From positions 1-20,187 of the IMG/VR virus record IMGVR_UViG_3300033146_000839: DNA of 20,187 nucleotides; one strand, written 5' to 3'. The notes beneath the pieces were generated by a model that worked only from the letters and a program-made list of their open reading frames with translations, searched no databases and was not told where the DNA came from. Origin of the DNA: a virus. The translations under genes and the position numbers were made by a program. Below, piece after piece: positions 2,961 to 20,020 of the stretch. Each line of letters starts with the position of its first letter. The first letter of the stretch is position 1.

Positions 2961-3668
2961 TTGAAATATTCGCCTTATTCATTCACCAAAATTGAATCTT
3001 ACCTCAAATGTCCAAAAATATTTCAATATAAATATATTGAGAAATTAAAGATTAAAGTCGATCCAAGTCATTTTGAAAAGGGTAGATATTATCATTCAGT
3101 CTTAGAATATTATCCCAAAGAAATTGATTTTTATTTTAAATATACTGACGAAGCAACACAAGAAATTTATAAAGAAACTATTCAAAGGTTCATTGAGCAT
3201 CCTCACGTTCAAGAATTATTGAATAACAAATTTGCTTCTGAATTAGAATTTAAGTTTGATGATAAAATGGATTTAACCGATATTAGTAAATGGCAAAGTC
3301 ATTTATATGGTTATATTGATTTTATTGGTAAAGATGAAGAAATATATGTTATTGATTGGAAAAGTAAAGATCATGGAGTACGCTTTCCAACTAACAAACA
3401 ACAATTAGAAATGTATGCTGGTTGGATATTTAAAGCTCGACCAAAATTACAAAAAATCAAATGTGAATTTGCTTATATTGAAAATATTACATTTGAGACA
3501 TTTGAATATACTCGTGAACAGGGTTTAGGGTTCGTTCAAGATATTGAAGATAGAATTAAGATTATTGAAAATGATCTAAAATTTGATAAGAAATTATCAA
3601 AGAAATGTACTAAGTGTGATTATTTTAATAATTGTAAACCATTTAATATTAGTGTTAAAAGGAATTAA
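2961..3668 (+). CDS. PD-(D/E)XK nuclease of the Cas4/RecB type with probable Fe-S cysteines
   Basis: A 235-residue nuclease of the PDDEXK_1 superfamily, which also includes Cas4, the AddB C-terminus and RecB. The motifs are in the expected order: YSFTKIESYLKCP with Cys17; GRYYHSVLE with the active-site His45; GYIDF with Asp120; IDWKSK with Asp132 and Lys134; and QLEMY (Gln148/Tyr152). A C-terminal cluster KKCTKCDYFNNCKP supplies Cys216, Cys219 and Cys225. With Cys17 these make the four-cysteine arrangement that binds a [4Fe-4S] cluster in Cas4, AddB and Dna2. All catalytic residues are present. The start is TTG 2961, supported by TAATGGAG (2948-2954) six bases upstream; no in-frame ATG is near. 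It is the first gene after a consensus sigma70 promoter. The family's activity is 5' or 3' exonuclease or flap cleavage on DNA; its role here (recombination, host DNA degradation, end processing) is unknown. Confidence 0.88.
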   Translation: MKYSPYSFTKIESYLKCPKIFQYKYIEKLKIKVDPSHFEKGRYYHSVLEYYPKEIDFYFKYTDEATQEIYKETIQRFIEHPHVQELLNNKFASELEFKFDDKMDLTDISKWQSHLYGYIDFIGKDEEIYVIDWKSKDHGVRFPTNKQQLEMYAGWIFKARPKLQKIKCEFAYIENITFETFEYTREQGLGFVQDIEDRIKIIENDLKFDKKLSKKCTKCDYFNNCKPFNISVKRN

Positions 3669-4177
3669 TGATGAGTCGTGGATTATATCAAGTACATTAT
3701 CCTAAAATTGGGAAAGTAACAATTAAAATTAAAAATATTATTATGAAATATAATCATAATGATATTGTTGAAGAACAAGCTTTCTTTGCGAACTATCCAC
3801 ATATTTTTAAAGCAAGACCAGATTTAGATAACGTTAATGTTAACGTTAATGCGCCTCAAGAAAAAACTGTACGTGAGGTTGAAGAATTTGTGCCAATTGC
3901 TTTTGAAACAGAACCATCTGAAGTACAGACGGTAGAAGCAATTGAAGAAATTCCTATTCCAACACCAACACCAGAATCGGATGTTGAAGGATTTAAGGAA
4001 TTACCGATTGAAGAAGTTCAAGAAGATATTGTTGAATATGAAATTGAGAAAGCGGGAAAAGGTTGGTATCGTGTACTTGACAAAAACGGTAATCAAGTCT
4101 TTCCTCTTGATACAACCAAAAAATGCCGAAAGAAAGCTGCCGAAACATTTATATCCACAGAAAGGGATGAACAATGA
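3668..4177 (+). CDS. Acidic linker protein with a GWY C-terminal domain (copy 1)
   Basis: A 169-residue protein in three parts: a small beta-rich N-terminal segment (GLYQVHYPKIGKVTIKIKN) with the phrase YNHNDIVEE, an acidic low-complexity linker rich in Glu, Val, Pro and Thr (residues 60-117), and a C-terminal domain YEIEKAGKGWYRVLDKNGNQ running to residue 164. The C-terminal domain is repeated in the next gene. The ATG at 3668 shares a base with the nuclease stop; a second ATG at 3671 is equally well placed from AAAGGAA (3658-3664), so the first residue is uncertain. The next gene overlaps by four bases. The function is unknown; a short N-terminal domain that reads 'gDIvEE' resembles small phage head-region proteins, which is only an impression. 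Confidence 0.75.
   Translation: MMSRGLYQVHYPKIGKVTIKIKNIIMKYNHNDIVEEQAFFANYPHIFKARPDLDNVNVNVNAPQEKTVREVEEFVPIAFETEPSEVQTVEAIEEIPIPTPTPESDVEGFKELPIEEVQEDIVEYEIEKAGKGWYRVLDKNGNQVFPLDTTKKCRKKAAETFISTERDEQ
3830..3851 (+). repeat. Short tandem repeat, unit AACGTTAATGTT
   Basis: The 12-base unit AACGTTAATGTT (3830-3841) is followed directly by a second, 10-base partial copy AACGTTAATG. It encodes the Asn-Val alternation NVNVNVNA at the start of the acidic linker. It is most simply a replication-slippage expansion in a poorly constrained linker. Confidence 0.6.
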
Positions 4178-4695
4178 GAGTACAAGTAATTCAAAATGTA
4201 AGTTTTTTACATAAAGGTGAAAAATACGGTCCTGGAGATATCATTGAAGAATTTAATGGTAAACTTGACAAATATATTAGACAAGTCGGGGCTGCTCCCA
4301 AACCAAAACCAACTCAACCTAAAGAAGAAACTCAACCTAAAGAAGCTTTAATGGAATCAAAACCTATTATTGATAAACCCATTACACGCACTGAAGAAGG
4401 AACAGAAGTTTTGGCAACATTTGATGAAGAAATTAACCTTTCTCCAGAAATGATCAAAGCTAAAATTGCCGAAATTGAATCAAAATCTGAAGATGATAGT
4501 ATTGTATTTCCTGATGATGTTACTGATGTTATTGTTCCTGATGATGTTGAAGAAGAAGTTGAAAAAGTAGAATATAATGTGGTTGAAGTTGGTCGTGGTT
4601 GGTATGAAGTTCATGATGCAAATGGTAAATCAGTATCTGAAAAGAAAATGCGTAGAGATGATGCTGAAAGTCTTTTAGAAGAACTTTATGCTTAA
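4174..4695 (+). CDS. Acidic linker protein with a GWY C-terminal domain (copy 2)
   Basis: A 173-residue protein with the same architecture as the gene before it: a small N-terminal domain (RVQVIQNVSFLHKGEKYGPG then DIIEEF, like the KYNHNDIVEE phrase of its neighbour), a long Pro/Lys then Glu/Asp-rich linker (residues 45-130), and the C-terminal domain YNVVEVGRGWYEVHDANGK followed by a charged helix DDAESLLEELYA. The shared pattern is E-x-G-[KR]-G-W-Y-x-V-x-D-x-N-G. The N-terminal segment resembles small phage proteins of the pattern 'v..nvsf.G..y..GdiIe', found near portal and head genes in many phages. It starts at ATG 4174 inside an ATGA overlap and is followed after 13 bases by the neck gene gp13. 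The function is unknown; neck or head association is inferred from position. Confidence 0.75.
   Translation: MRVQVIQNVSFLHKGEKYGPGDIIEEFNGKLDKYIRQVGAAPKPKPTQPKEETQPKEALMESKPIIDKPITRTEEGTEVLATFDEEINLSPEMIKAKIAEIESKSEDDSIVFPDDVTDVIVPDDVEEEVEKVEYNVVEVGRGWYEVHDANGKSVSEKKMRRDDAESLLEELYA
4312..4345 (+). repeat. Tandem 18-base repeat in linker
   Basis: The 16-base block ACTCAACCTAAAGAAG occurs at 4312-4327 and again at 4330-4345, separated by AA, so the period is 18 bases. It encodes two copies of T-Q-P-K-E in the Pro/Lys/Glu linker of the second acidic protein and keeps the reading frame. Confidence 0.7.
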
Positions 4696-4708
4696 TTAGG
4701 AAATTATT

Positions 4709-5500
4709 ATGGCAAACCCAAATTATAACACAAGACGGGGGTTGAAAGATTATGTTCTGCGAAATTTAGGACATCCCGTTATAAATGTTGAATTAGATGA
4801 TATGCAGATGAATGATTTCATCAACACTGCACTTGAAGAATTCTTACCTTATTCGGATGATGGACATCAAAAACGTTTTAAGGTACTTCAATTGGAATGT
4901 GGTAAAACATCTTATACAATGACAAACAATGTTTATTCTATTTTAGGTTTATATCAATCTAATTATCTTGATTATTCCCCAGCTCCTTCTGATTTATTCA
5001 GTATCAATCAATACATGGCTAATGATATGATGATTGGTGGTTTAGGAAAGATGGATATTCTTTCATTAGAATTAGTTCAAGAACAAATTTCTACATTGGG
5101 TGTTGTGTTTGGAAAACGGATTGAATATGAATATAATGAAATCACCAAAGAATTATATTTACATGCTGATCCAAAATCACAAACATATTTTAATGATATT
5201 GGTGGAAACAATTTAATGGTTTTTATGGAATATTATAAAAAGCTTGATTATGATTTATTTGAAGATAGTGAAGAAAATCCACTCTTCGGTCATTATTGGG
5301 TTCAACAAATTTGTGTTGCTTATGGTCGGATTCAATGGGCTATGAACTTAATGAAATATAATGGTTCTACTTTACCTAATGGCATGACATTAAATCCTGA
5401 AGCACAATTAGAAAAAGGTCAAAATTCAGTTGAAATGCTTATGACTCAATTACATGAAGAAAATAAATTTAGTGATCCAGTAGATTTCTTTATTGGGTAA
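4709..5500 (+). CDS. 13: Neck protein gp13-like (head completion)
   Basis: A 263-residue homologue of T4 gp13, which with gp14 forms the neck that closes the filled head and receives the tail. The diagnostic part is the N-terminus: LKDYVLRNLGHPVINVELDD followed by MNDFINTALEEFLPY, the helical pattern shared by gp13 proteins of T4-superfamily phages. The protein is shorter than T4 gp13 (about 309 residues). A middle segment with SINQYMANDMMIGGLG and a C-terminal helical region (YWVQQICVAYGRIQWAMNLM) follow. Ribosome site AGGAAA (4698-4703) precedes ATG 4709. It is immediately followed by a strong terminator, and gp14 is the next gene, as in T4. The assignment rests on sequence pattern plus synteny. 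Confidence 0.82.
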   Translation: MANPNYNTRRGLKDYVLRNLGHPVINVELDDMQMNDFINTALEEFLPYSDDGHQKRFKVLQLECGKTSYTMTNNVYSILGLYQSNYLDYSPAPSDLFSINQYMANDMMIGGLGKMDILSLELVQEQISTLGVVFGKRIEYEYNEITKELYLHADPKSQTYFNDIGGNNLMVFMEYYKKLDYDLFEDSEENPLFGHYWVQQICVAYGRIQWAMNLMKYNGSTLPNGMTLNPEAQLEKGQNSVEMLMTQLHEENKFSDPVDFFIG

Positions 5501-5526
5501 AAAATCACAAATTGAATATTATTTAT

Positions 5527-5562
5527 AAAAGGCGAGTACTTAAAATGGTACTCGCCTTTTTT
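5527..5562 (+). terminator. Intrinsic terminator after gp13
   Basis: Stem GGCGAGTAC (5531-5539) pairs perfectly with GTACTCGCC (5548-5556) around the loop TTAAAATG. The stem is preceded by AAAA (5527-5530) and followed by six T (5557-5562). It ends the unit that starts at the sigma70 promoter at 2898 and lies just before a late promoter. Confidence 0.92.
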
Positions 5563-5567
5563 GTCTT

Positions 5568-5575
5568 TATAAATA
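5568..5575 (+). promoter_or_regulatory. T4-type late promoter for gp14-gp17
   Basis: An exact TATAAATA octamer, the sole essential element of T4 late promoters read by RNA polymerase with gp55. It lies six bases after the terminator's T run and about 30 bases before the gp14 start codon, in the 105-base intergenic gap. Transcription would begin about six bases after the octamer. Confidence 0.82.
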
Positions 5576-5605
5576 CAGGTATAAAACACTTTATTGAGGT
5601 TTATT

Positions 5606-6298
5606 ATGGGGCAATTTAGAAGACCATCATATGGAAATGGAGCACATCCATTTCGAATGAATCAACAATTACCAACTGCTGATATCGAACTATTCAAAGA
5701 TATTTTTGAAGAAGGGGTGCAGCTGCATGGTGATCCTCTCATTTATATTCAAAAAGAATATGCTGAAGAAGAAGCTACTTTTGGTGAACATTTAATTGAA
5801 ACAATGCGAGATGTTCATCATCTTTATGGATTTATTGAACAAACTGAAGGTTGGGAGGGAACGGGTGAAATGTTCTCTAAATTTGGTATTCGTTCAATGG
5901 ATGATATGACAATTCATATACCCAAAAACACATTTTATGATTTAGAATTTCAACCGAAAATTGGTGATATTATCTATCATGTAACAACTAAAAAATTATG
6001 GGAAATTGAAGATACTAAAGATGATAAAGATTATTCCTTTCATCCTTTAGGTCAGCATGTTGCTTATATTTTAGGTTGTAAATCTTATCGTTTCGATCAT
6101 ATTGAAGCTGGTGAAGAATTCACTCAATCAGAGGATGAACATATTCAAACAATCAATGAAGTATTATTCGGTGATGGTGATGTACATGAAAATGCTCATG
6201 ATTTTGAAATTGAACAGAAAAATGATAAATTAGATGCTGAAATCATTGATCAGGATATTATAGATGATTCTGAAGATGATCCGTTAGGATTTGGCTAA
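5606..6298 (+). CDS. 14: Neck protein gp14-like (head completion)
   Basis: A 230-residue homologue of T4 gp14 (about 256 residues), the partner of gp13 in the neck. Family features visible: a basic N-terminus with MGQFRRPSYGNG and HPFRMNQ; then DIFEEGVQLHGDPLIYIQKEY, matching T4's 'aEsiQmrGve.yYvpreY'; FGEHLIET; FIEQTEGWEGTGEMFSKFGI (T4: FEGYEGANSFFSNFG); IGDIIYH; and LWEIEDTKDD before HPLGQHVAY. The C-terminal 40 residues are acidic. I chose ATG 5606 with TGAGG (5595-5599) as ribosome site rather than the in-frame TTG 5594, which overlaps that site. The stop shares a base with the gp15 start. Confidence 0.9.
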   Translation: MGQFRRPSYGNGAHPFRMNQQLPTADIELFKDIFEEGVQLHGDPLIYIQKEYAEEEATFGEHLIETMRDVHHLYGFIEQTEGWEGTGEMFSKFGIRSMDDMTIHIPKNTFYDLEFQPKIGDIIYHVTTKKLWEIEDTKDDKDYSFHPLGQHVAYILGCKSYRFDHIEAGEEFTQSEDEHIQTINEVLFGDGDVHENAHDFEIEQKNDKLDAEIIDQDIIDDSEDDPLGFG

Positions 6299-7404
6299 TG
6301 CAATATTTTGCACATAGAAATATAATTCGAAAATCTGTCATTTCATTTATGACATTATTTGATAAGATTTGGATTGAGAAATATCGGAGTGATGGTTCTA
6401 CAAAATTATTTCGAGTTCCAATTCAATTTGCGAACCGCGAAAAGTGGTTACAACAAATTCAATCAAAAGTTCATTTTGCTGGAAATCATGATGGTTTTCA
6501 CAATAATGCTCGTTTTGAAATCGATATGATTTTTCCAAGAATCTCAACTAACATTACTTCTCTTAGTTATGATACTGTCAGAAAAGTAGGAAAAACTAAT
6601 AAACTTTTCGCATGTGAAAATTGTACATTAAATGATTTGAAAGTCGATTCTTCTTTTGCACCAGCACCATGGAATCTTGAATTCGAATTAGCTATCATAT
6701 CTAAAAATATGGATGATGGCTTACAGATTATTGAACAAATTGTTCCTTTCTTTCAGCCTTCATTATCGGTAAACATTAAATATCTTGAAGGATTTGCTTC
6801 GGATTCAATTCCTATTATATTAGATTCTGTTACACCAACACATGATGAAGATTTGGATGCTGATGTTGATCGTAATTTTATTTGGATTTTAACATTCAGA
6901 ATGAAGATCAATTTTCATACACCAAAACGTATTATGGGGAGAATTGATGATGTTATTATGAATCTTCATCCTAATGAAAAAGGCGTGGAGCATGATCAAT
7001 TAACACAATATCAATTAAATGCTAATAAGTTAGAAAATATAAATGAAATGAATGATGTATTCGGTTTAATATTTGATCGTGCTAATAAAACTATCGCAAT
7101 TCAAAAACGTTCCGAAGGTGAAATAAGAGATTTTATCACAGAATATAAAGATACAGAATATGAAGTTTTGTTAATAACATCTGAAGGTGATTTCGAATAT
7201 ACCGCTGATGAATTTTATATGACTGATTTAGCAGGAACAACCACATATCTTGTTCAAGCGGATTATAATATTATAAGTATTAAGACAACAACTGTTGATG
7301 AAGCTATTGGTGCGCCTCAAGTTGTTGAATTCATGGAAAAAACATCGAATACAACTTTTAATATGGCTATTACTGATACAGGAGATTTAGAAATATCTCA
7401 ATAA
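6298..7404 (+). CDS. 15: Tail-sheath stabiliser / tail completion protein gp15-like, with C-terminal extension
   Basis: A 368-residue homologue of T4 gp15 (272 residues), which caps the finished tail at the head-proximal end and joins it to the neck. The gp15-like part covers about residues 8-225: FDKIWIEKYRSDGSTKLFRV, then VPIQFANREKWLQQI, ARFEIDMIFPRIS, the segment PAPWNLEFELAIISKNMDDG, IVPFFQPSLSVNI, and the closing FIWILTFRMKINFHTP. The last 120 or so residues (FGLIFDRANKTIAIQKRSEG onward) are not in T4 gp15 and look like one or two small beta domains. The ATG at 6298 overlaps the gp14 stop. A possible alternative start is Met18 (MTLFDKIW), closer to where T4 gp15 begins. Confidence 0.9.
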   Translation: MQYFAHRNIIRKSVISFMTLFDKIWIEKYRSDGSTKLFRVPIQFANREKWLQQIQSKVHFAGNHDGFHNNARFEIDMIFPRISTNITSLSYDTVRKVGKTNKLFACENCTLNDLKVDSSFAPAPWNLEFELAIISKNMDDGLQIIEQIVPFFQPSLSVNIKYLEGFASDSIPIILDSVTPTHDEDLDADVDRNFIWILTFRMKINFHTPKRIMGRIDDVIMNLHPNEKGVEHDQLTQYQLNANKLENINEMNDVFGLIFDRANKTIAIQKRSEGEIRDFITEYKDTEYEVLLITSEGDFEYTADEFYMTDLAGTTTYLVQADYNIISIKTTTVDEAIGAPQVVEFMEKTSNTTFNMAITDTGDLEISQ

Positions 7405-11934: not shown

Positions 11935-12444
11935 ATGGGAATCGCATTAACAGATTTTAAAGCTAAAGTTCAAGACGTGGCACGTACTAATCGTTTCTTG
12001 TTTACTTTTGCTTCCCCAGTGAGTGGGGCAGATTCTGAAACCATGTCTTATCTTTGTAAAGGTGCTCAATTACCTGCAAAGACCATTGGTGAAATTGTTC
12101 TGAATTGGCAAGGTATGCAAAATAAAATTGCTGGTGATCCAACTTTTGATGATCTAACATTAACTTTCATTAATGATTATGAGCAAGTGGGTAGAAAAAC
12201 ATTTGAGGATTGGATGCATTTTATTGATGATCAAACTTCTAATGAAAGAGAAGCTTCAGGTGATTACAAGATTGATTGTACAGTTGAACTTCTTGGGCGT
12301 AAAGGTGAAACTATTTCTGCCTTTAAAATGTTTGGTGTTTGGCCCAAACAATTAGATGCCGTTGATCTTAATTCTGAATCAAGTGATACTATGTCCGAAT
12401 ATGGCGTTACACTTGGGATGGATTATTGGGAACGAGTTTCTTAA
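11935..12444 (+). CDS. 19: Tail tube protein gp19-like
   Basis: A 169-residue tail tube protein (163 in T4). Family features: an N-terminal segment DFKAKVQDVARTNRFLFTF that leads into the beta barrel, CKGAQLPAKTIGEIVLNWQG (the 'lPg..ig' strand), the segment AGDPTFDDLTLTFINDYEQ, and the tube helix KTFEDWMHFIDD. The C-terminus closes with WPKQLDAVDLNSESSDTMSE and YGVTLGMDYWERVS, as expected of the gp19 fold. Stacked hexameric rings of this protein form the channel inside the sheath. Ribosome site TAGGAG (11922-11927). It is followed by a strong terminator. A second protein of the same fold lies at 15521-16009. Confidence 0.95.
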   Translation: MGIALTDFKAKVQDVARTNRFLFTFASPVSGADSETMSYLCKGAQLPAKTIGEIVLNWQGMQNKIAGDPTFDDLTLTFINDYEQVGRKTFEDWMHFIDDQTSNEREASGDYKIDCTVELLGRKGETISAFKMFGVWPKQLDAVDLNSESSDTMSEYGVTLGMDYWERVS

Positions 12445-12477
12445 ATCAAAAATTAAATTATTTTTAATTTATTTGGA

Positions 12478-12506
12478 GAGGTGCTATTTTAGCACCTCTT
12501 TTTTTT
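12478..12506 (+). terminator. Intrinsic terminator after the tube gene
   Basis: GAGGTGCT (12478-12485) pairs perfectly with AGCACCTC (12491-12498) around the five-base loop ATTTT and is followed by eight T (12499-12506). An AT-only inverted repeat (AAATTAAA ... TTTAATTT) just upstream is much weaker. This ends the sheath-tube unit and separates it from the envelope-protein cassette. Confidence 0.93.
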
Positions 12507-12521
12507 GGCTTTTCTTAAAAA

Positions 12522-12529
12522 CATAAATA
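12522..12529 (+). promoter_or_regulatory. Possible late promoter (CATAAATA variant) for the envelope cassette
   Basis: CATAAATA differs from the T4 late octamer TATAAATA only at the first base and lies in the same place relative to a terminator as the exact octamer before gp14: 15 bases after the T run and 30 bases before the start codon. It is the only late-type candidate for the genes from 12560 onward. The mismatch suggests a weaker promoter, or that expression depends on readthrough. Confidence 0.45.
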
Positions 12530-12559: not shown

Positions 12560-13585
12560 ATGAAAAAATTAATTCTTATATTATTCTTTTGTCTTCTCAC
12601 AACACAAGCATATACTAAAGAGTGTATCAATGTGGTAATATTATTTGATAAATCTTATGAAAATCAAAGCGGTGGGATTTTAAGTAAAGAATTAAATAAT
12701 TATATGAATAATGATTTATATAAAATCTCACGTATCTATATGAATTGTGATGCTACTTGTACCGAAAATAAAATGCAATTAAGATTTGAAAAAGCTTTGC
12801 GGAAAGCTGAAAATAGAGATCCAAATTATCTTATTATTAGTAATCAGAACTTATGGGATTTATATCATCATCAAATTGTAAATTTTAAAAATAAATTACA
12901 TGTTAAAGTTGGTTTGTTTAATATGTTTAAATCTTCTGATAATTTTCAGTTTGATTTCGGACACGACTTTTCGGGTTTCTTTATTGATTATTCAACAATT
13001 GATCTAAACACATTTATGTTTTACACTAAACGAAATGGGATAGAATTTGATCATTTCTATATTCTAAGAGACGAATCAGCTTATAGCTTAAAAATAGCAA
13101 CACATTTAAAGAAAATCTTGCGAACATATGGACGGTTCTTTCAAATAGAAGTTACTACACTCTCATCAATTCAAGGTTTAAAGAATAAAATTATTGAATT
13201 ACAAAATAAACCCCAAGGTATAATAATTCCAATAATTAAACAGGTAATGGATTCCGATATCAAAAAGGAAATCATGACCACAATTACTCATCATAACAAA
13301 AAACATTTTGAATTAAGTGTTTTAGAAGATGATACAGAATATCTTTGTTTTAGTTTATCACATATTATCAATAATGAGTTTGTAAAATTTAAAAAATACC
13401 CTGATTATTCGCAACATATAGATCAACTAAATATGGGGCAATTATTAAATCATTTTGGTGGTGATAAAAATATATTTGCTATTGAAAAAACATATTTTAT
13501 AATGAATGAAGAACGTGTTAAAGAAATTTTTGGTGGATATAAGTTATTAAGGTTTAAAAACGATTTCGTAGATTTTTTGAGGTGA
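12560..13585 (+). CDS. Exported periplasmic-binding-protein-like protein
   Basis: A 341-residue protein with a clear Sec signal: MKK, a hydrophobic core (residues 4-13) and TTQA, with likely cleavage after Ala17. No lipobox is present. The mature part alternates strands and helices: ECINVVILFDKSYENQSGG, YLIISNQNLWDLYH, LHVKVGLFNMF, FDHFYILRDESAYSLKIATH with LKKILRTYG, and GIIIPIIKQVMDS. That is a two-lobed Rossmann-like plan reminiscent of type 1 periplasmic binding proteins, in particular ABC_sub_bind-type sensors, though I cannot confirm the family. Cys63 and Cys67, and Cys22, could form disulfides after export. It heads a cassette with two membrane-protein genes that starts after a terminator. 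No T4 virion gene at this position encodes an exported protein. ATG 12560 has a modest ribosome site TAGGG (12547-12551). Confidence 0.8.
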   Translation: MKKLILILFFCLLTTQAYTKECINVVILFDKSYENQSGGILSKELNNYMNNDLYKISRIYMNCDATCTENKMQLRFEKALRKAENRDPNYLIISNQNLWDLYHHQIVNFKNKLHVKVGLFNMFKSSDNFQFDFGHDFSGFFIDYSTIDLNTFMFYTKRNGIEFDHFYILRDESAYSLKIATHLKKILRTYGRFFQIEVTTLSSIQGLKNKIIELQNKPQGIIIPIIKQVMDSDIKKEIMTTITHHNKKHFELSVLEDDTEYLCFSLSHIINNEFVKFKKYPDYSQHIDQLNMGQLLNHFGGDKNIFAIEKTYFIMNEERVKEIFGGYKLLRFKNDFVDFLR

Positions 13586-13589
13586 CATA

Positions 13590-13955
13590 ATGAGTACATC
13601 AAAAATTATTAATAAAATCTATGAAAAAATAGCATATCATGTTAAATATACTATCAATGATGATGGTATTATAATTAAAGAAGAACGAAATAACAATTTT
13701 GATATGGGGCGGTTGAATATTATATTAATATCTTTATTAATATTCATAATATTTGTTTTTACAATAGGTCTAACATCATATGAATTACATAAAATATCAC
13801 AAGATAAAGTCTATCAATCAACATTTTATGTAAATCAATTATGTTTTCGGGGGGAAGATTTAAGTGAATGTTTTAATATTCATCATAATCAACCCGTTAA
13901 AATTTATTTAGATGAACAAAATGATATAAAAACTCTTTTTATATCCGGAGATTAA
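13590..13955 (+). CDS. Single-span membrane protein with small periplasmic domain
   Basis: A 121-residue protein: a cytosolic N-terminus of about 40 residues (IYEKIAYHVKYTINDDGIII then KEER), one strongly hydrophobic segment at residues 42-62 (Ile/Leu/Phe), and a C-terminal domain of about 58 residues. The positive residues before the span (KEERN, and Arg41) predict N-in/C-out. Cys85 and Cys94 lie in the C-terminal domain and could be disulfide-bonded, which fits an outside location. It starts four bases after the exported protein's stop with GAGGTGA as ribosome site, and the next gene starts four bases after its stop. I recognise no family. It could contact the exported protein in the periplasm. 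Confidence 0.75.
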   Translation: MSTSKIINKIYEKIAYHVKYTINDDGIIIKEERNNNFDMGRLNIILISLLIFIIFVFTIGLTSYELHKISQDKVYQSTFYVNQLCFRGEDLSECFNIHHNQPVKIYLDEQNDIKTLFISGD

Positions 13956-13959
13956 TATA

Positions 13960-14601
13960 GTGTTTGAATTTATCATAAATCTTTCAACATCAGCGTATTT
14001 TGCGTTGGGTGCGGTTTCAATAACTGTTATAGTAGTTATTTTAATTATTACACCATTGATGAATCATGTAAAACAATTAGATGAAGTTGTTATGAAGAAA
14101 TTATCTTTATTACCAACAACTGATACATATTCAACTTTATTTGAACTTATTACAGATCAAAATGTGTTGAATGAAGGTTTATTAAAAGAATATGGTGAGA
14201 TTAGAAATTCTGTAATTAAATTAAATGAAATAATTTCAGGTTTAAATGGTGATCAAGAAATATTACAACATAATATGGATATTTTTATTGAACAAATGAA
14301 TAATTTAGAAATATCTTTAGAAGATTATACTGCACATTTAGAATTCAATGATGATAAAGCATCAAGACAGATAAATAGTTTGGTTAAAGCTCGTATTGAT
14401 ATGACAACCTTTTTAATCAAATTAATAGAATCATTAAAAGCATCCAAACATATTGAACCAGATTTTAGTGGTGAGACATTATATGCTATTCGAGAAGAAT
14501 TACGAGTGGGTGTTGAAACAATTAAAAATATGAATTATAGATCTCATCAAACAAATCCACGATCAGGTTCTGTTGATAAACTAACAGATTTTGAATACTA
14601 A
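13960..14601 (+). CDS. Membrane-anchored coiled-coil protein
   Basis: A 213-residue protein: an N-terminal hydrophobic span at about residues 13-33 (ALGAVSITVIVVILIITPLM), then about 180 residues of helical, heptad-like sequence (residues 35-165: LDEVVMKKLS, LLKEYGEIRNSVIKLNEIIS, HNMDIFIEQMNNLEISLEDY) and a polar tail rich in Ser, Asn and Arg. This is the plan of a membrane-anchored cytosolic coiled coil, as in signalling or scaffold proteins, but there is no catalytic, HAMP or GGDEF motif. The start is GTG 13960, placed by CCGGAG (13945-13950) nine bases upstream and by the stop of the previous gene. It is tightly linked to its neighbours on both sides. The function is unknown. Confidence 0.75.
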   Translation: MFEFIINLSTSAYFALGAVSITVIVVILIITPLMNHVKQLDEVVMKKLSLLPTTDTYSTLFELITDQNVLNEGLLKEYGEIRNSVIKLNEIISGLNGDQEILQHNMDIFIEQMNNLEISLEDYTAHLEFNDDKASRQINSLVKARIDMTTFLIKLIESLKASKHIEPDFSGETLYAIREELRVGVETIKNMNYRSHQTNPRSGSVDKLTDFEY

Positions 14602-14611
14602 GGAAACAATC

Positions 14612-15511
14612 ATGATTAAAACATTTCCAGTCGATTTAATGTCATTAATACATCATATTCAAGTACAATATGAAAAAGTATTAAACAACAAAAAATTTAA
14701 ATCAAGAATGTGTTATTGTAAAAAAGAAATTTTCTCACAATTCACTTATACCGTTGAGAATGTTATTATTAAATTAGGAGCAAGAACATTAAAGTTCCTT
14801 GAAGATTTCAATGTTGAACTATCAACCGATTTAGCTGATTTAAGAACTTGGTTTAATAAAGAAGTTTATGATTCATTATATGAGAATGAACGTGTTTCAA
14901 ATAAACTTGTATTAACATTTCAATTACTCCAAGAATATCAAGATGAGAAGTTTTTCGATATAATTGAAAAGAAATATGATAATATATTAAATATTTTGAA
15001 ATCAGATAAAGAAACTGGAGTTGAACAAGAATTAAATGATTTGTTTGAAGAAATTCGTGCTTGGTATGAACTATTCCTATATATGATATTAGCAACACAA
15101 TTTAATTGTCAATCTTTCGGTGATGATTACCTAAAAGATCATGGGGTTGCATTTGATGTTGCAGTTCCTGATGATAGAAGATGTATTCATGAAGGAGATT
15201 GTGATGTTCATATGAAAGTTGTTGAAGCTGGTGAACAGATAAATATAATCATGACTAATGATTTTATTGATGATATAACTTGGTTAGATAAAATGATGTG
15301 CATCATTTCAAATTATCACACTAATCCTTCTTCAGTAACATTAACATTAGATTATAGAATGTATGACCATTTAGTTCAATGTAAATTATCAGAAAGACAT
15401 TATGATAAATTAATTGAAGCTAATAAACACTTCAAAAATATGACAATTAAAAATCATGAAGGAATTAATTTTAACGGTCATTATGAAGCAATTAAACATT
15501 TGATCGATTAA
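14612..15511 (+). CDS. Helical cytosolic protein with Cys/His cluster, unrecognised
   Basis: A 299-residue soluble protein with no signal or membrane span. Residues 1-165 are predicted mostly helical (VDLMSLIHHIQVQYEKVLNN; VSNKLVLTFQLLQEYQDEKF; EIRAWYELFLYMILATQFNC). Residues 166-200 carry a possible metal site: Cys166 and CIHEGDCDVH with Cys191, His193, Cys197 and His200; Cys34 and Cys36 (MCYC) may contribute. The C-terminal third is mixed alpha/beta. ATG 14612 with AAGGA (14600-14604) is preferred over the in-frame TTG 14591, which overlaps the previous gene. It continues the cassette of the two membrane proteins, 10 bases behind them, and is followed after nine bases by a tube-fold gene. 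It could be a cytosolic effector of the cassette or a structural protein. Confidence 0.75.
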   Translation: MIKTFPVDLMSLIHHIQVQYEKVLNNKKFKSRMCYCKKEIFSQFTYTVENVIIKLGARTLKFLEDFNVELSTDLADLRTWFNKEVYDSLYENERVSNKLVLTFQLLQEYQDEKFFDIIEKKYDNILNILKSDKETGVEQELNDLFEEIRAWYELFLYMILATQFNCQSFGDDYLKDHGVAFDVAVPDDRRCIHEGDCDVHMKVVEAGEQINIIMTNDFIDDITWLDKMMCIISNYHTNPSSVTLTLDYRMYDHLVQCKLSERHYDKLIEANKHFKNMTIKNHEGINFNGHYEAIKHLID

Positions 15512-15520
15512 GGAATTAAC

Positions 15521-16009
15521 ATGTCAGAATTAGATTATTGTAATAGTATTAATTTACTAAAATCTGCACAGTTTAAATTGATATTAGAACACCCAGAAAG
15601 AACTGTTGAATTTTTTGTTCAAGAATGTAATATCCCAGGATGGTCAATAGGGGCAATGGAAGTCCCTTGGATGGCACAGAATCAACAACGTCCGGGAGAT
15701 AATATTACTTGGAATCAATTAAGTGCAATGGTGGTTTGTGATGAAGAGTTAAGAGCCCTCATTGAATGCCATAAATATTGTTTTAGAATTAAGAACCCCA
15801 AAACTGGTGAAATAGGCGGCCCTGAAGAAACTTTTGATGCTAAATTAATGATTTTAACTAACAAAAATAATTATCAGCATGTTATCACATTTTATGATGC
15901 TTGGATTGAAACGGTTTCAGATTTACAATTATCTCATACAACATCTGAAGATGATCCAGTTACTTTTAGTGTTGACATTCAATATGATTATTATGCAATT
16001 GGTGAATAA
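15521..16009 (+). CDS. Second tail-tube-fold protein (tube initiator or terminator candidate)
   Basis: A 162-residue protein that reads like a gp19-fold member: FKLILEHPERTVEFFVQECN then IPGWSIGAMEVPWM (the strand and 'lPg..ig' pattern of tube proteins), NITWNQLSAMVVCDEELRAL with EC (strand then the ring helix), LMILTNKNNYQHVITFYDAW, and the closing DPVTFSVDIQYDYYAIGE. It is clearly diverged from the main tube protein at 11935. In T4, tube-like folds also occur in the baseplate tube initiator gp54 and in gp48, although those are about twice as long. I therefore suggest a tube initiator, terminator or minor tube ring. Ribosome site AAGGA (15510-15514); gp4 begins directly after its stop. Confidence 0.72.
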   Translation: MSELDYCNSINLLKSAQFKLILEHPERTVEFFVQECNIPGWSIGAMEVPWMAQNQQRPGDNITWNQLSAMVVCDEELRALIECHKYCFRIKNPKTGEIGGPEETFDAKLMILTNKNNYQHVITFYDAWIETVSDLQLSHTTSEDDPVTFSVDIQYDYYAIGE

Positions 16010-18790: not shown

Positions 18791-20020
18791 ATGCCAAAGT
18801 CATTTAAAGAATTATCTCTTGAAAAAGATTTACAAGAACAAAATTTAGGCGAATTTGATATTGTCAAAAAATCTGCGCCTAAATCACTTCTTGAAATGGA
18901 TGATTTATCTGAATTCAATTTAATTATTCGTAAAGAAGAACAAATTGAACAGATTAGTATTGTCGAGGGTGAAAAGGGTAAACAAGGAATCCAAGGTGAA
19001 CAAGGGTTAATTGGTGAACAAGGAATCCAAGGTGAAACCGGACCTATCGGTGTTCAAGGTAAACAAGGACCGAGAGGGATAAGGGGTAAAGATGGAAATA
19101 TCGGACCTCAAGGAATCCAAGGTGAACAAGGCTTAAAAGGTGAAAACGGTTTTGTCGGTGAACAAGGTGAACAAGGCGAACAAGGAATTCAAGGTGAGCA
19201 AGGAATTCAAGGTAAAACTGGTAAGGTCGGAGCTTCTGGTGCTCCCGGGCCAATCGGTGAACAAGGAATTCAAGGTAAACGTGGACCGCAGGGTGTTCCT
19301 GGAGTCGCTGGTCAAAAAGGCGAAAAAGGCGATATTGGGGTTCAAGGAAAACAAGGAATTCAAGGTGAGCAAGGAATTCAAGGAGAAATCGGACCTAAAG
19401 GTAAAACCGGAAAAATAGGTAAAACGGGTGAACAAGGCGAAATCGGTCTCCAAGGAAAAATAGGTAAAACAGGTAAACAAGGTCCGATGGGTGATCGAGG
19501 TTTACGTGGTTACAAGGGTATTCAAGGAATTGCCGGTCCCCAAGGGGAACAAGGGATTCAGGGTGTTCAGGGTGAAATTGGTAAACAAGGTTTAGCTGCT
19601 GAACATCAAATTCAAACAAACGGTGTTCGTTGGAAAAAACCTAATGGTGATTGGGGTGAATGGCTATATGTCAAAGGACAAGCTGGTATTATGTCCAGCG
19701 GTTCGGGTATTGGTCAAGCTGAAGCTTCAGGAATAGCACAACATTTAATTGATAAAGCTTTAGAAGGTTTTGATCCTGGAACTCCAGGCGGTGGTATCAT
19801 TGTTGAAGAAGAACAAGAAGTTATTCACAATGGAACAACTGTTATTGATACACCCTCAGATTTGAAAATTGGTTCACAAGAAATTTATTTGAATGGCATT
19901 AGATTATCAGTTGGTAACAATAGAGATTATTCAATTGATGAAACAAATATACGATTTCTCAATGGTTGGGAATTATTTAATCAAGATATTATAAATATCT
20001 TATATAGTAAAAATATTTAA
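18791..20020 (+). CDS. Collagen-like fibre protein
   Basis: A 409-residue protein. Residues 1-59 are a charged non-repetitive head (MPKSFKELSLEKDLQEQNLG onward). Residues 60-269 are 70 uninterrupted Gly-X-Y triplets, dominated by GIQ, GEQ, GKQ and GKT, the pattern of phage collagen-like triple helices, with few prolines and many Gln, Glu and Lys. The C-terminal domain (270-409) begins HQIQTNGVRWKKPNGDWGEW (a motif frequent after collagen repeats in phage proteins) followed by LYVKG, then a Gly-rich linker and a final beta segment with EIYLNGIRLSVGNNRDYSID. The protein is probably a trimeric surface fibre on head or neck, perhaps host-binding. The start is ATG 18791, three bases after the portal stop, with only a weak ribosome site, which suggests translational coupling to the portal. 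Confidence 0.9.
   Translation: MPKSFKELSLEKDLQEQNLGEFDIVKKSAPKSLLEMDDLSEFNLIIRKEEQIEQISIVEGEKGKQGIQGEQGLIGEQGIQGETGPIGVQGKQGPRGIRGKDGNIGPQGIQGEQGLKGENGFVGEQGEQGEQGIQGEQGIQGKTGKVGASGAPGPIGEQGIQGKRGPQGVPGVAGQKGEKGDIGVQGKQGIQGEQGIQGEIGPKGKTGKIGKTGEQGEIGLQGKIGKTGKQGPMGDRGLRGYKGIQGIAGPQGEQGIQGVQGEIGKQGLAAEHQIQTNGVRWKKPNGDWGEWLYVKGQAGIMSSGSGIGQAEASGIAQHLIDKALEGFDPGTPGGGIIVEEEQEVIHNGTTVIDTPSDLKIGSQEIYLNGIRLSVGNNRDYSIDETNIRFLNGWELFNQDIINILYSKNI
18968..19597 (+). repeat. Collagen-type repeat tract (9-base periodic, 70 Gly-X-Y codons)
   Basis: A 630-base tract coding the triple-helix region. Blocks such as GGAATTCAAGGTGAGCAAGG (19182, 19357) and GGAATCCAAGGTGAACAAGG (18987, 19110) recur almost identically, so it is a recombination-prone region whose copy number may vary between relatives. 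It also creates long open frames on other strands and frames, which are shadows. Confidence 0.9.
19990..19997 (+). promoter_or_regulatory. T4-type late promoter before the last gene
   Basis: An exact TATAAATA octamer within the final codons of the collagen-like gene, 40 bases before the next start codon. Its distance to the start matches the other late promoters in this window, so it is probably functional despite overlapping the coding end. Confidence 0.65.

Follow-up and report, generated by a model that had tools for sequence, protein, structure and literature searches.

The window, the whole stretch of DNA analysed here, is a virus record of 20,187 bases in which late genes of T4-like type were recognised. 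Genes for exonuclease-like, neck and sheath-stabiliser proteins, terminase, sheath and tube precede the segment 12560-15511. After it come a second tube-like protein, gp4-like head-closure and gp2-like DNA-end-protector proteins, the portal and a collagen-like protein. The terminase was identified from tblastn matches, and its nearest named homologues (Pelagibacter phage HTVC008M and others) are about 40% identical. In HTVC008M and Melnitz, two T4-like relatives, the tube adjoins the portal and the cassette is absent between them, which makes the tube-to-portal block an extra of the window lineage. Within this block gene A heads a tight late cassette, A-B-C-D, encoding in turn a secreted protein with a periplasmic-binding-protein (PBP) fold, a transmembrane (TM) protein with a cysteine pair, a TM protein with a coiled coil, and a soluble protein. 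The features are as follows.

1140-1496: PAAR-like spike protein, cysteine-rich (phrog_281, E 3.3e-11)
11935-12444: tail-tube gene, the normal tube gene
12475..12508, plus strand: terminator-like hairpin of the factor-independent type, a 12-pair stem and T run between the tail-tube gene and A
12522..12529, plus strand: CATAAATA, T4-late-promoter-like element, 38 bases 5' of the ATG of A
12560..13585, plus strand: gene A, 341 aa, secreted, predicted type I PBP fold (phrog_31505 match, E 6e-8)
13590..13955, plus strand: gene B, 121 aa, one TM helix (44-62) by hydropathy
13960..14601, plus strand: gene C, 213 aa, GTG start, TM helix (12-30) by hydropathy, then a long coiled-coil-like region
14612..15511, plus strand: gene D, 299 aa, soluble protein, helical bundle and C-terminal beta-alpha domain
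15521-16009: second tail-tube-like protein, directly after the cassette (phrog_45, E 1.4e-22)
18791-20020: collagen-like GXX-repeat protein, directly 3' of the portal

The three partner genes, which the preliminary description of the locus had passed over in favour of A, are what makes the finding interesting. Intergenic gaps in the window are 4 (A-B), 4 (B-C) and 10 bases (C-D), and they range from -11 to +19 bases across the seven cassettes listed. Scans with window D lead to seven other viral contigs, each carrying A-B-C-D in order. In six of these seven relatives the second tube gene comes after D, just as it does in the window. The exception, L056, has all four genes together with hairpin and promoter (3433-6915) in a different gene neighbourhood, and this relocated but intact cassette suggests that the cassette moves as a unit. 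The second tail-tube-like protein (15521-16009) is kept in L018-L022 and L055.

The cassette appears to carry its own transcription signals. A scan of the region for the terminator pattern found five sites, against 1.2 ± 1.2 in shuffles, and the stem at 12475..12508 is the longest. By eye, a hairpin and T run lie upstream of A in all seven cassettes with readable upstream sequence, window included. The T4 late promoter consensus is TATAAATA, and NATAAATA is found 24-42 bases upstream of the A start in 8/8 window-type cassettes, compared with a background fraction of 0.027 among 60-mers sampled along the same contigs. YATAAATA occurs 12 times in the window where 7.5 are expected, and six of 100 shuffles reach as many. 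As this is no strong general excess, the promoter argument stands on position and conservation.

Gene A runs from an ATG at 12560 to a stop at 13585. Its dN/dS (0.25 against L018, 0.22 against L019) indicates purifying selection, which excludes a chance open reading frame. The N-terminus reads MKKLILILFFCLLTTQA up to the presumed cleavage point and YTK beyond it, with a positive start, a strong hydrophobic run and a small-x-small site, so that residues 1-17 or 1-19 resemble a signal peptide that would probably be cleaved. In a crude signal-peptide scan of our own, which is not SignalP and has a high background, 35 of 38 distinct A-family members are positive, against 93 of 412 other ORFs of at least 150 aa from the same loci. 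A lipobox was not seen in A, where C11 falls within the hydrophobic run. The PBP fold of the model starts at residue 21, leaving the putative signal peptide as the sole part of A outside the fold. The exported protein with a signal-like N-terminus that had been proposed from the sequence is supported, and its signal peptide is probably cleavable. The cysteines are at residues 11, 22, 63, 67 and 263; C63 and C67 are invariant across six window-type A sequences, and C22 is not conserved. Y33, R170 and D171 are also invariant in these six, and may lie near the cleft, judging by strand ends alone. Export had further been called unusual for a myovirus late gene. This does not hold, since the T4 antiholin RI has a cleavable signal peptide (PMC8385771), and an exported late protein is in itself not unusual for a myovirus.

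The gene A product is predicted at high confidence to adopt a type I PBP fold. An AlphaFold2 model built from 25 aligned sequences has a pLDDT of 86.7 and a pTM of 0.82, and DSSP on this model confirms the strand-helix alternation that the preliminary description had read from the mature sequence. Foldseek returns type I PBPs (258 PDB chains at E<=0.001, best 2.0e-7). VIA-align, in agreement, gives Z>=8 for 976 of 1000 chains and a best Z of 18.9 over 268 residues; the match covers residues 21-341, nearly the whole chain, in two alpha/beta lobes. The suspected binding-protein fold is therefore upheld by structure prediction and structural search alike. The closest structures are CD0873 (6hnj, Z 18.9; 6hni, Z 18.1), L-Trp-bound 3lft (Z 18.2) and 3lkv from V. 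cholerae (Z 17.9), followed by other binding proteins and LacI-type regulators at Z <=16.7. In a viral structure library the best three matches are A0A1C3NF84 (309 aa), a Yoloswag protein and a Dickeya JA13 protein.

CD0873, 3lft and 3lkv, which we take to be ABC_sub_bind-type (Pfam PF04392) proteins, the group already named in the preliminary description, share with A the two-lobed type I fold and export, superposing at Z 17.9-18.9 with an rmsd of 4.1-4.5 over 266-271 residues. Unlike them, A lacks a lipobox and importer genes, has three phage-specific partners, and is only 8-10% identical to them; among the 50 structural matches listed, identity is 6-14%. Pfam ABC_sub_bind matches none of 25 A-family members at E<=1, the A alignments used as profiles against PDB sequences yielded chance matches alone, and A does not resemble any solved or Pfam binding-protein family in sequence. 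Genome-contig scans with window-type D and enteric jumbo D found no bacterial relative, although the short peptide patterns used miss distant homologues. Recent acquisition from a host, one origin put forward for A, is not supported by these results, in that the lack of any ABC_sub_bind sequence match argues against a recent host gene. LuxP (1zhh; Z 15.3, rmsd 3.6, 262 residues) also shares the fold, and in LuxP-LuxQ a PBP docks on a membrane sensor. The putative partners of A differ in being small phage proteins with no kinase, and nothing connects A to a known signal.

Hydropathy and sequence patterns suggest how the partners might sit in the envelope. In B, a part of about 40 residues before the TM helix is probably cytosolic and a C-terminal domain of about 55 residues probably periplasmic. 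Its pre-TM net charge is positive in five of six window-type members and 0 in the window itself. C85 and C94, which follow the TM helix, are invariant in 6/6 window-type sequences, and jumbo B has four cysteines. Past its TM helix, window C has an amphipathic helix with 3.5-residue periodicity (z 3.2) in a region that is probably cytosolic; the periodicity recurs in 6/6 window-type C (z 2.5-3.8) and in six tested of 30 jumbo C (4.8-6.6). The charge pattern of C is weak, so that its N-out orientation is tentative. For D, alignment with relatives favours the ATG at 14612 over the TTG at 14591. Its AF2 model has a pLDDT of 78.9, and a fold search gave helical-bundle matches alone (Z <=9.2), uninformative by the tool's own note. 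A C-x-H-x(n)-C-x-V-H cluster, conserved in 8/8 window-type D, is a possible metal site. Measured against two relatives, dN/dS falls from A (0.22-0.25) through B (0.17-0.21) and C (0.13-0.14) to D (0.09-0.13). The periplasmic side of the cassette varies while the cytosolic side is conserved, and constraint grows from the outside in.

A cassette in the same order is found in distantly related jumbo phages of Erwinia, Dickeya and Pseudomonas, plus NCTB, and was read in Yoloswag, Y3, JA29, NCTB, PaBG, Lu11, HRDY3 and Sen-NF. The Yoloswag cassette starts with an exported A-like gene, and genes resembling B, C and D come after it. Sixty phage records match Yoloswag A, 57 of them across 80% or more of its length, and 71 match Yoloswag D. 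Two jumbo-D scans gave 32 viral-contig loci, many from near-identical phages, and by profile all four genes are present in every one of the 32. JA29 and Yoloswag are 27.8% identical in A and 52.4% in D, so here too the periplasmic member is the more variable. The A of Sen-NF is short (193 aa) and its signal peptide was not flagged in our scan. A search of the viral contigs with NCTB A returned nothing; one with window A found no relative there and in the phage collection two Yoloswag records alone (E 0.03), and window C found nothing in the phage collection.

Profile-profile comparison of window-type with jumbo-type proteins gives 98.1% (E 7.8e-14) for A, 89.5% (E 1.9e-6) for C, 13% (E 0.0022) for B, whose best partner this is, and 0.2% (E 0.28) for D, against at most 1.3% for the 12 off-diagonal pairs. 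Among 1060 sequences (window ORFs and shuffles) a jumbo-A HMM ranks window A first (E 1.5e-11); jumbo B and C profiles also rank their window counterparts first, weakly (E 0.031 and 0.012), and the D profile did not. These profiles indicate that A and C are homologous between the cassette types and are suggestive of homology for B, and the D proteins are putative counterparts matched by position alone. As D is undetected and B suggestive, a shared four-part machine is indicated for A and C alone. The proteins of phrog_31505, phrog_31730 and phrog_19088 (Yoloswag gp92, gp90 and gp89) accordingly resemble the window cassette in gene order and architecture, and differ in a D that is unrelatable by sequence and in a B with four cysteines where the window has two; they are uncharacterised. 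Homology of D through shared columns picked by eye was not supported, as four sub-profiles and the reverse direction rank real D below shuffles. Three matches of window D in the jumbo phages SPLA10 and PCH45 were set aside as chance-level, their neighbourhoods being without the cassette, and the matches of jumbo D to PglZ (E 0.0055) and of jumbo C to JetC (E 0.002) were attributed to chance or coiled coil.

The Vibrio phages Va1 and pv27 (L008; L009 5534-6771) have C and D. A and B were undetected in their whole records, the B search having had no positive control. A C-D core lacking the periplasmic part may therefore exist, and C-D could work without input from A or B.

A list of parts running from periplasm to cytoplasm, late, with its outer parts evolving fastest, reads most simply as a sensor and relay. 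A would be a soluble periplasmic receptor that feeds a dedicated transenvelope relay built by the phage itself; B, which would sit in the inner membrane with a small periplasmic domain of disulfide type, would be the docking site of A; C would transmit the state through the membrane by way of its TM helix and cytosolic coiled coil; and soluble D would act or pass the state on in the cytoplasm. Because of late production and, in the T4-like lineage, its own late promoter, the most likely use would be to gauge, as infection ends, what state the envelope or the surroundings are in, the cue being a small ligand, cell-wall fragments or superinfection. The output might fix the time of lysis or shut out secondary infection, as T4 RI-T does by means of unrelated proteins. 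We infer an A-B-C-D interaction, ligand binding and a biological output, and hold a late transenvelope relay that works like T4 lysis inhibition, and is not a member of that system, at a little short of an even chance. It is rather doubtful, though worth stating, that the cassette founds a new class of phage transenvelope signalling machine, common to the T4-like and several jumbo lineages, in which a periplasmic PBP receptor senses a small molecule and acts through two membrane proteins on a cytosolic effector that decides lysis time or competitor entry. The preliminary description had offered a sensor or a decoy competing with a host receptor complex. The sensor half survives, and a free-standing decoy is unlikely because A stands at the head of four conserved genes, the other three of which would supply it with partners in the membrane and the cytosol.

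To our knowledge, phage sensing of the periplasm is known in few lytic phages, T4 RI being the best described. RI lies in the periplasm and restrains the holin T (PMC8385771, PMC11413866). The T4 lysis-inhibition system (RI antiholin, T holin, RIII) shares with the cassette a phage-encoded signal-peptide protein in the periplasm and a T4-like phage as its setting, and B would resemble a T-type membrane partner in its small cytosolic N-part, single TM helix and periplasmic C-domain (same sources). It differs in that the cassette has a PBP fold and two TM partners of opposite predicted topology, sits among structural genes and has no lysis-family sequence match. The Pfam and PHROGs searches gave no match to RI, T or RIII, and such small proteins diverge fast. 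An endolysin or peptidase gene lies a few kb downstream of the cassette in Lu11, HRDY3 and pv27 and lends weak support to a lysis link; beside the window cassette no holin or endolysin gene was recognised. Searches of NCBIfam, PADLOC and Rfam, and for tRNAs, returned nothing relevant to the cassette. No description of the cassette was found in open-licence PMC papers, which does not prove its absence from the literature, and a term search of the main text of PMC7824862, PMC7412058, PMC6143709 and PMC13282480 found neither 'periplasm' nor 'signal peptide'. If the relay reading is true, it would offer a tractable second kind of envelope sensor in culturable Erwinia, Dickeya and Pseudomonas jumbo phages, and direct tests of what large lytic phages perceive towards the end of infection would become possible.

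Superinfection exclusion or receptor blocking is the best-surviving competitor, though unlikely. Here A would block tail tips, DNA or a host entry protein, with B-C-D as an anchor that does not signal. Late expression, envelope location and the quicker divergence of A and B, the exposed members, would fit an arms race, and the jumbo cassette is placed after tail-fibre genes. A blocker, however, would need neither an entire PBP fold with both lobes nor a large cytosolic partner under such constraint (dN/dS 0.09-0.13).

Lysis execution, with the two TM proteins acting like holin or spanin and A and D as accessories that disrupt or prime the envelope, is quite improbable. It would suit a late unit with two small TM proteins and the nearby endolysin or peptidase of Lu11, HRDY3 and pv27. 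Window B and C, however, have no lysis-family match in Pfam or PHROGs, the one weak spanin match (E 0.052, to a Vibrio C) stands among other chance-level matches, and we know of no role for a PBP fold in known lysis machines. Very little probability attaches to a morphogenesis factor, be it a membrane anchor or quality control for the assembly of tails or fibres, or a cassette protein that is itself part of the virion. The cassette does lie among structural genes in the window lineage (tube and portal) and in Y3 and PaBG (tail fibres), yet an exported PBP-fold protein cannot reach cytosolic assembly, HTVC008M and Melnitz have adjacent tube and portal without a cassette, and the L056 cassette is at a distance from the tube genes. 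That A scavenges nutrients or acts as a decoy, feeding or competing with a host ABC importer, is hardly probable at all: the nearest folds are ABC importer binding proteins and phrog_19088 is named ABC transporter, but nothing in the cassette resembles a permease (B and C each have a single TM), there is no ATPase motif except one Walker A pattern in 37 D, and A is unlike the solved and Pfam binding-protein families in sequence.

Regardless of function, propagated labels are corrected for a group of uncharacterised genes that have matches in dozens of phage records. Jumbo or Vibrio D is annotated as ABC transporter, after the name of phrog_19088, in L005, L006, L007, L009, L011 and L014. This label is not supported, there being no permease-like gene, an ABC signature in 0/37 D proteins and the Walker A pattern in 1/37. 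For Yoloswag gp92 (L002 5587-6597), GenBank gives a start at 5860 where the frame is open from 5587, 91 codons apart; the GenBank start drops the signal peptide, and the signal-peptide stretch overlaps the preceding gene. In the Alcaligenes phage Afa-NA1 (L012) part of A is fused to D, and B and C are missing. This record was left out of the family sets because the A'-D fusion looks like a rearranged record. Afa-NA1 and the Salmonella phage Sen-NF (L013) have identical tail-region proteins despite differing stated hosts, and misassembly or mislabelling of these records is possible.
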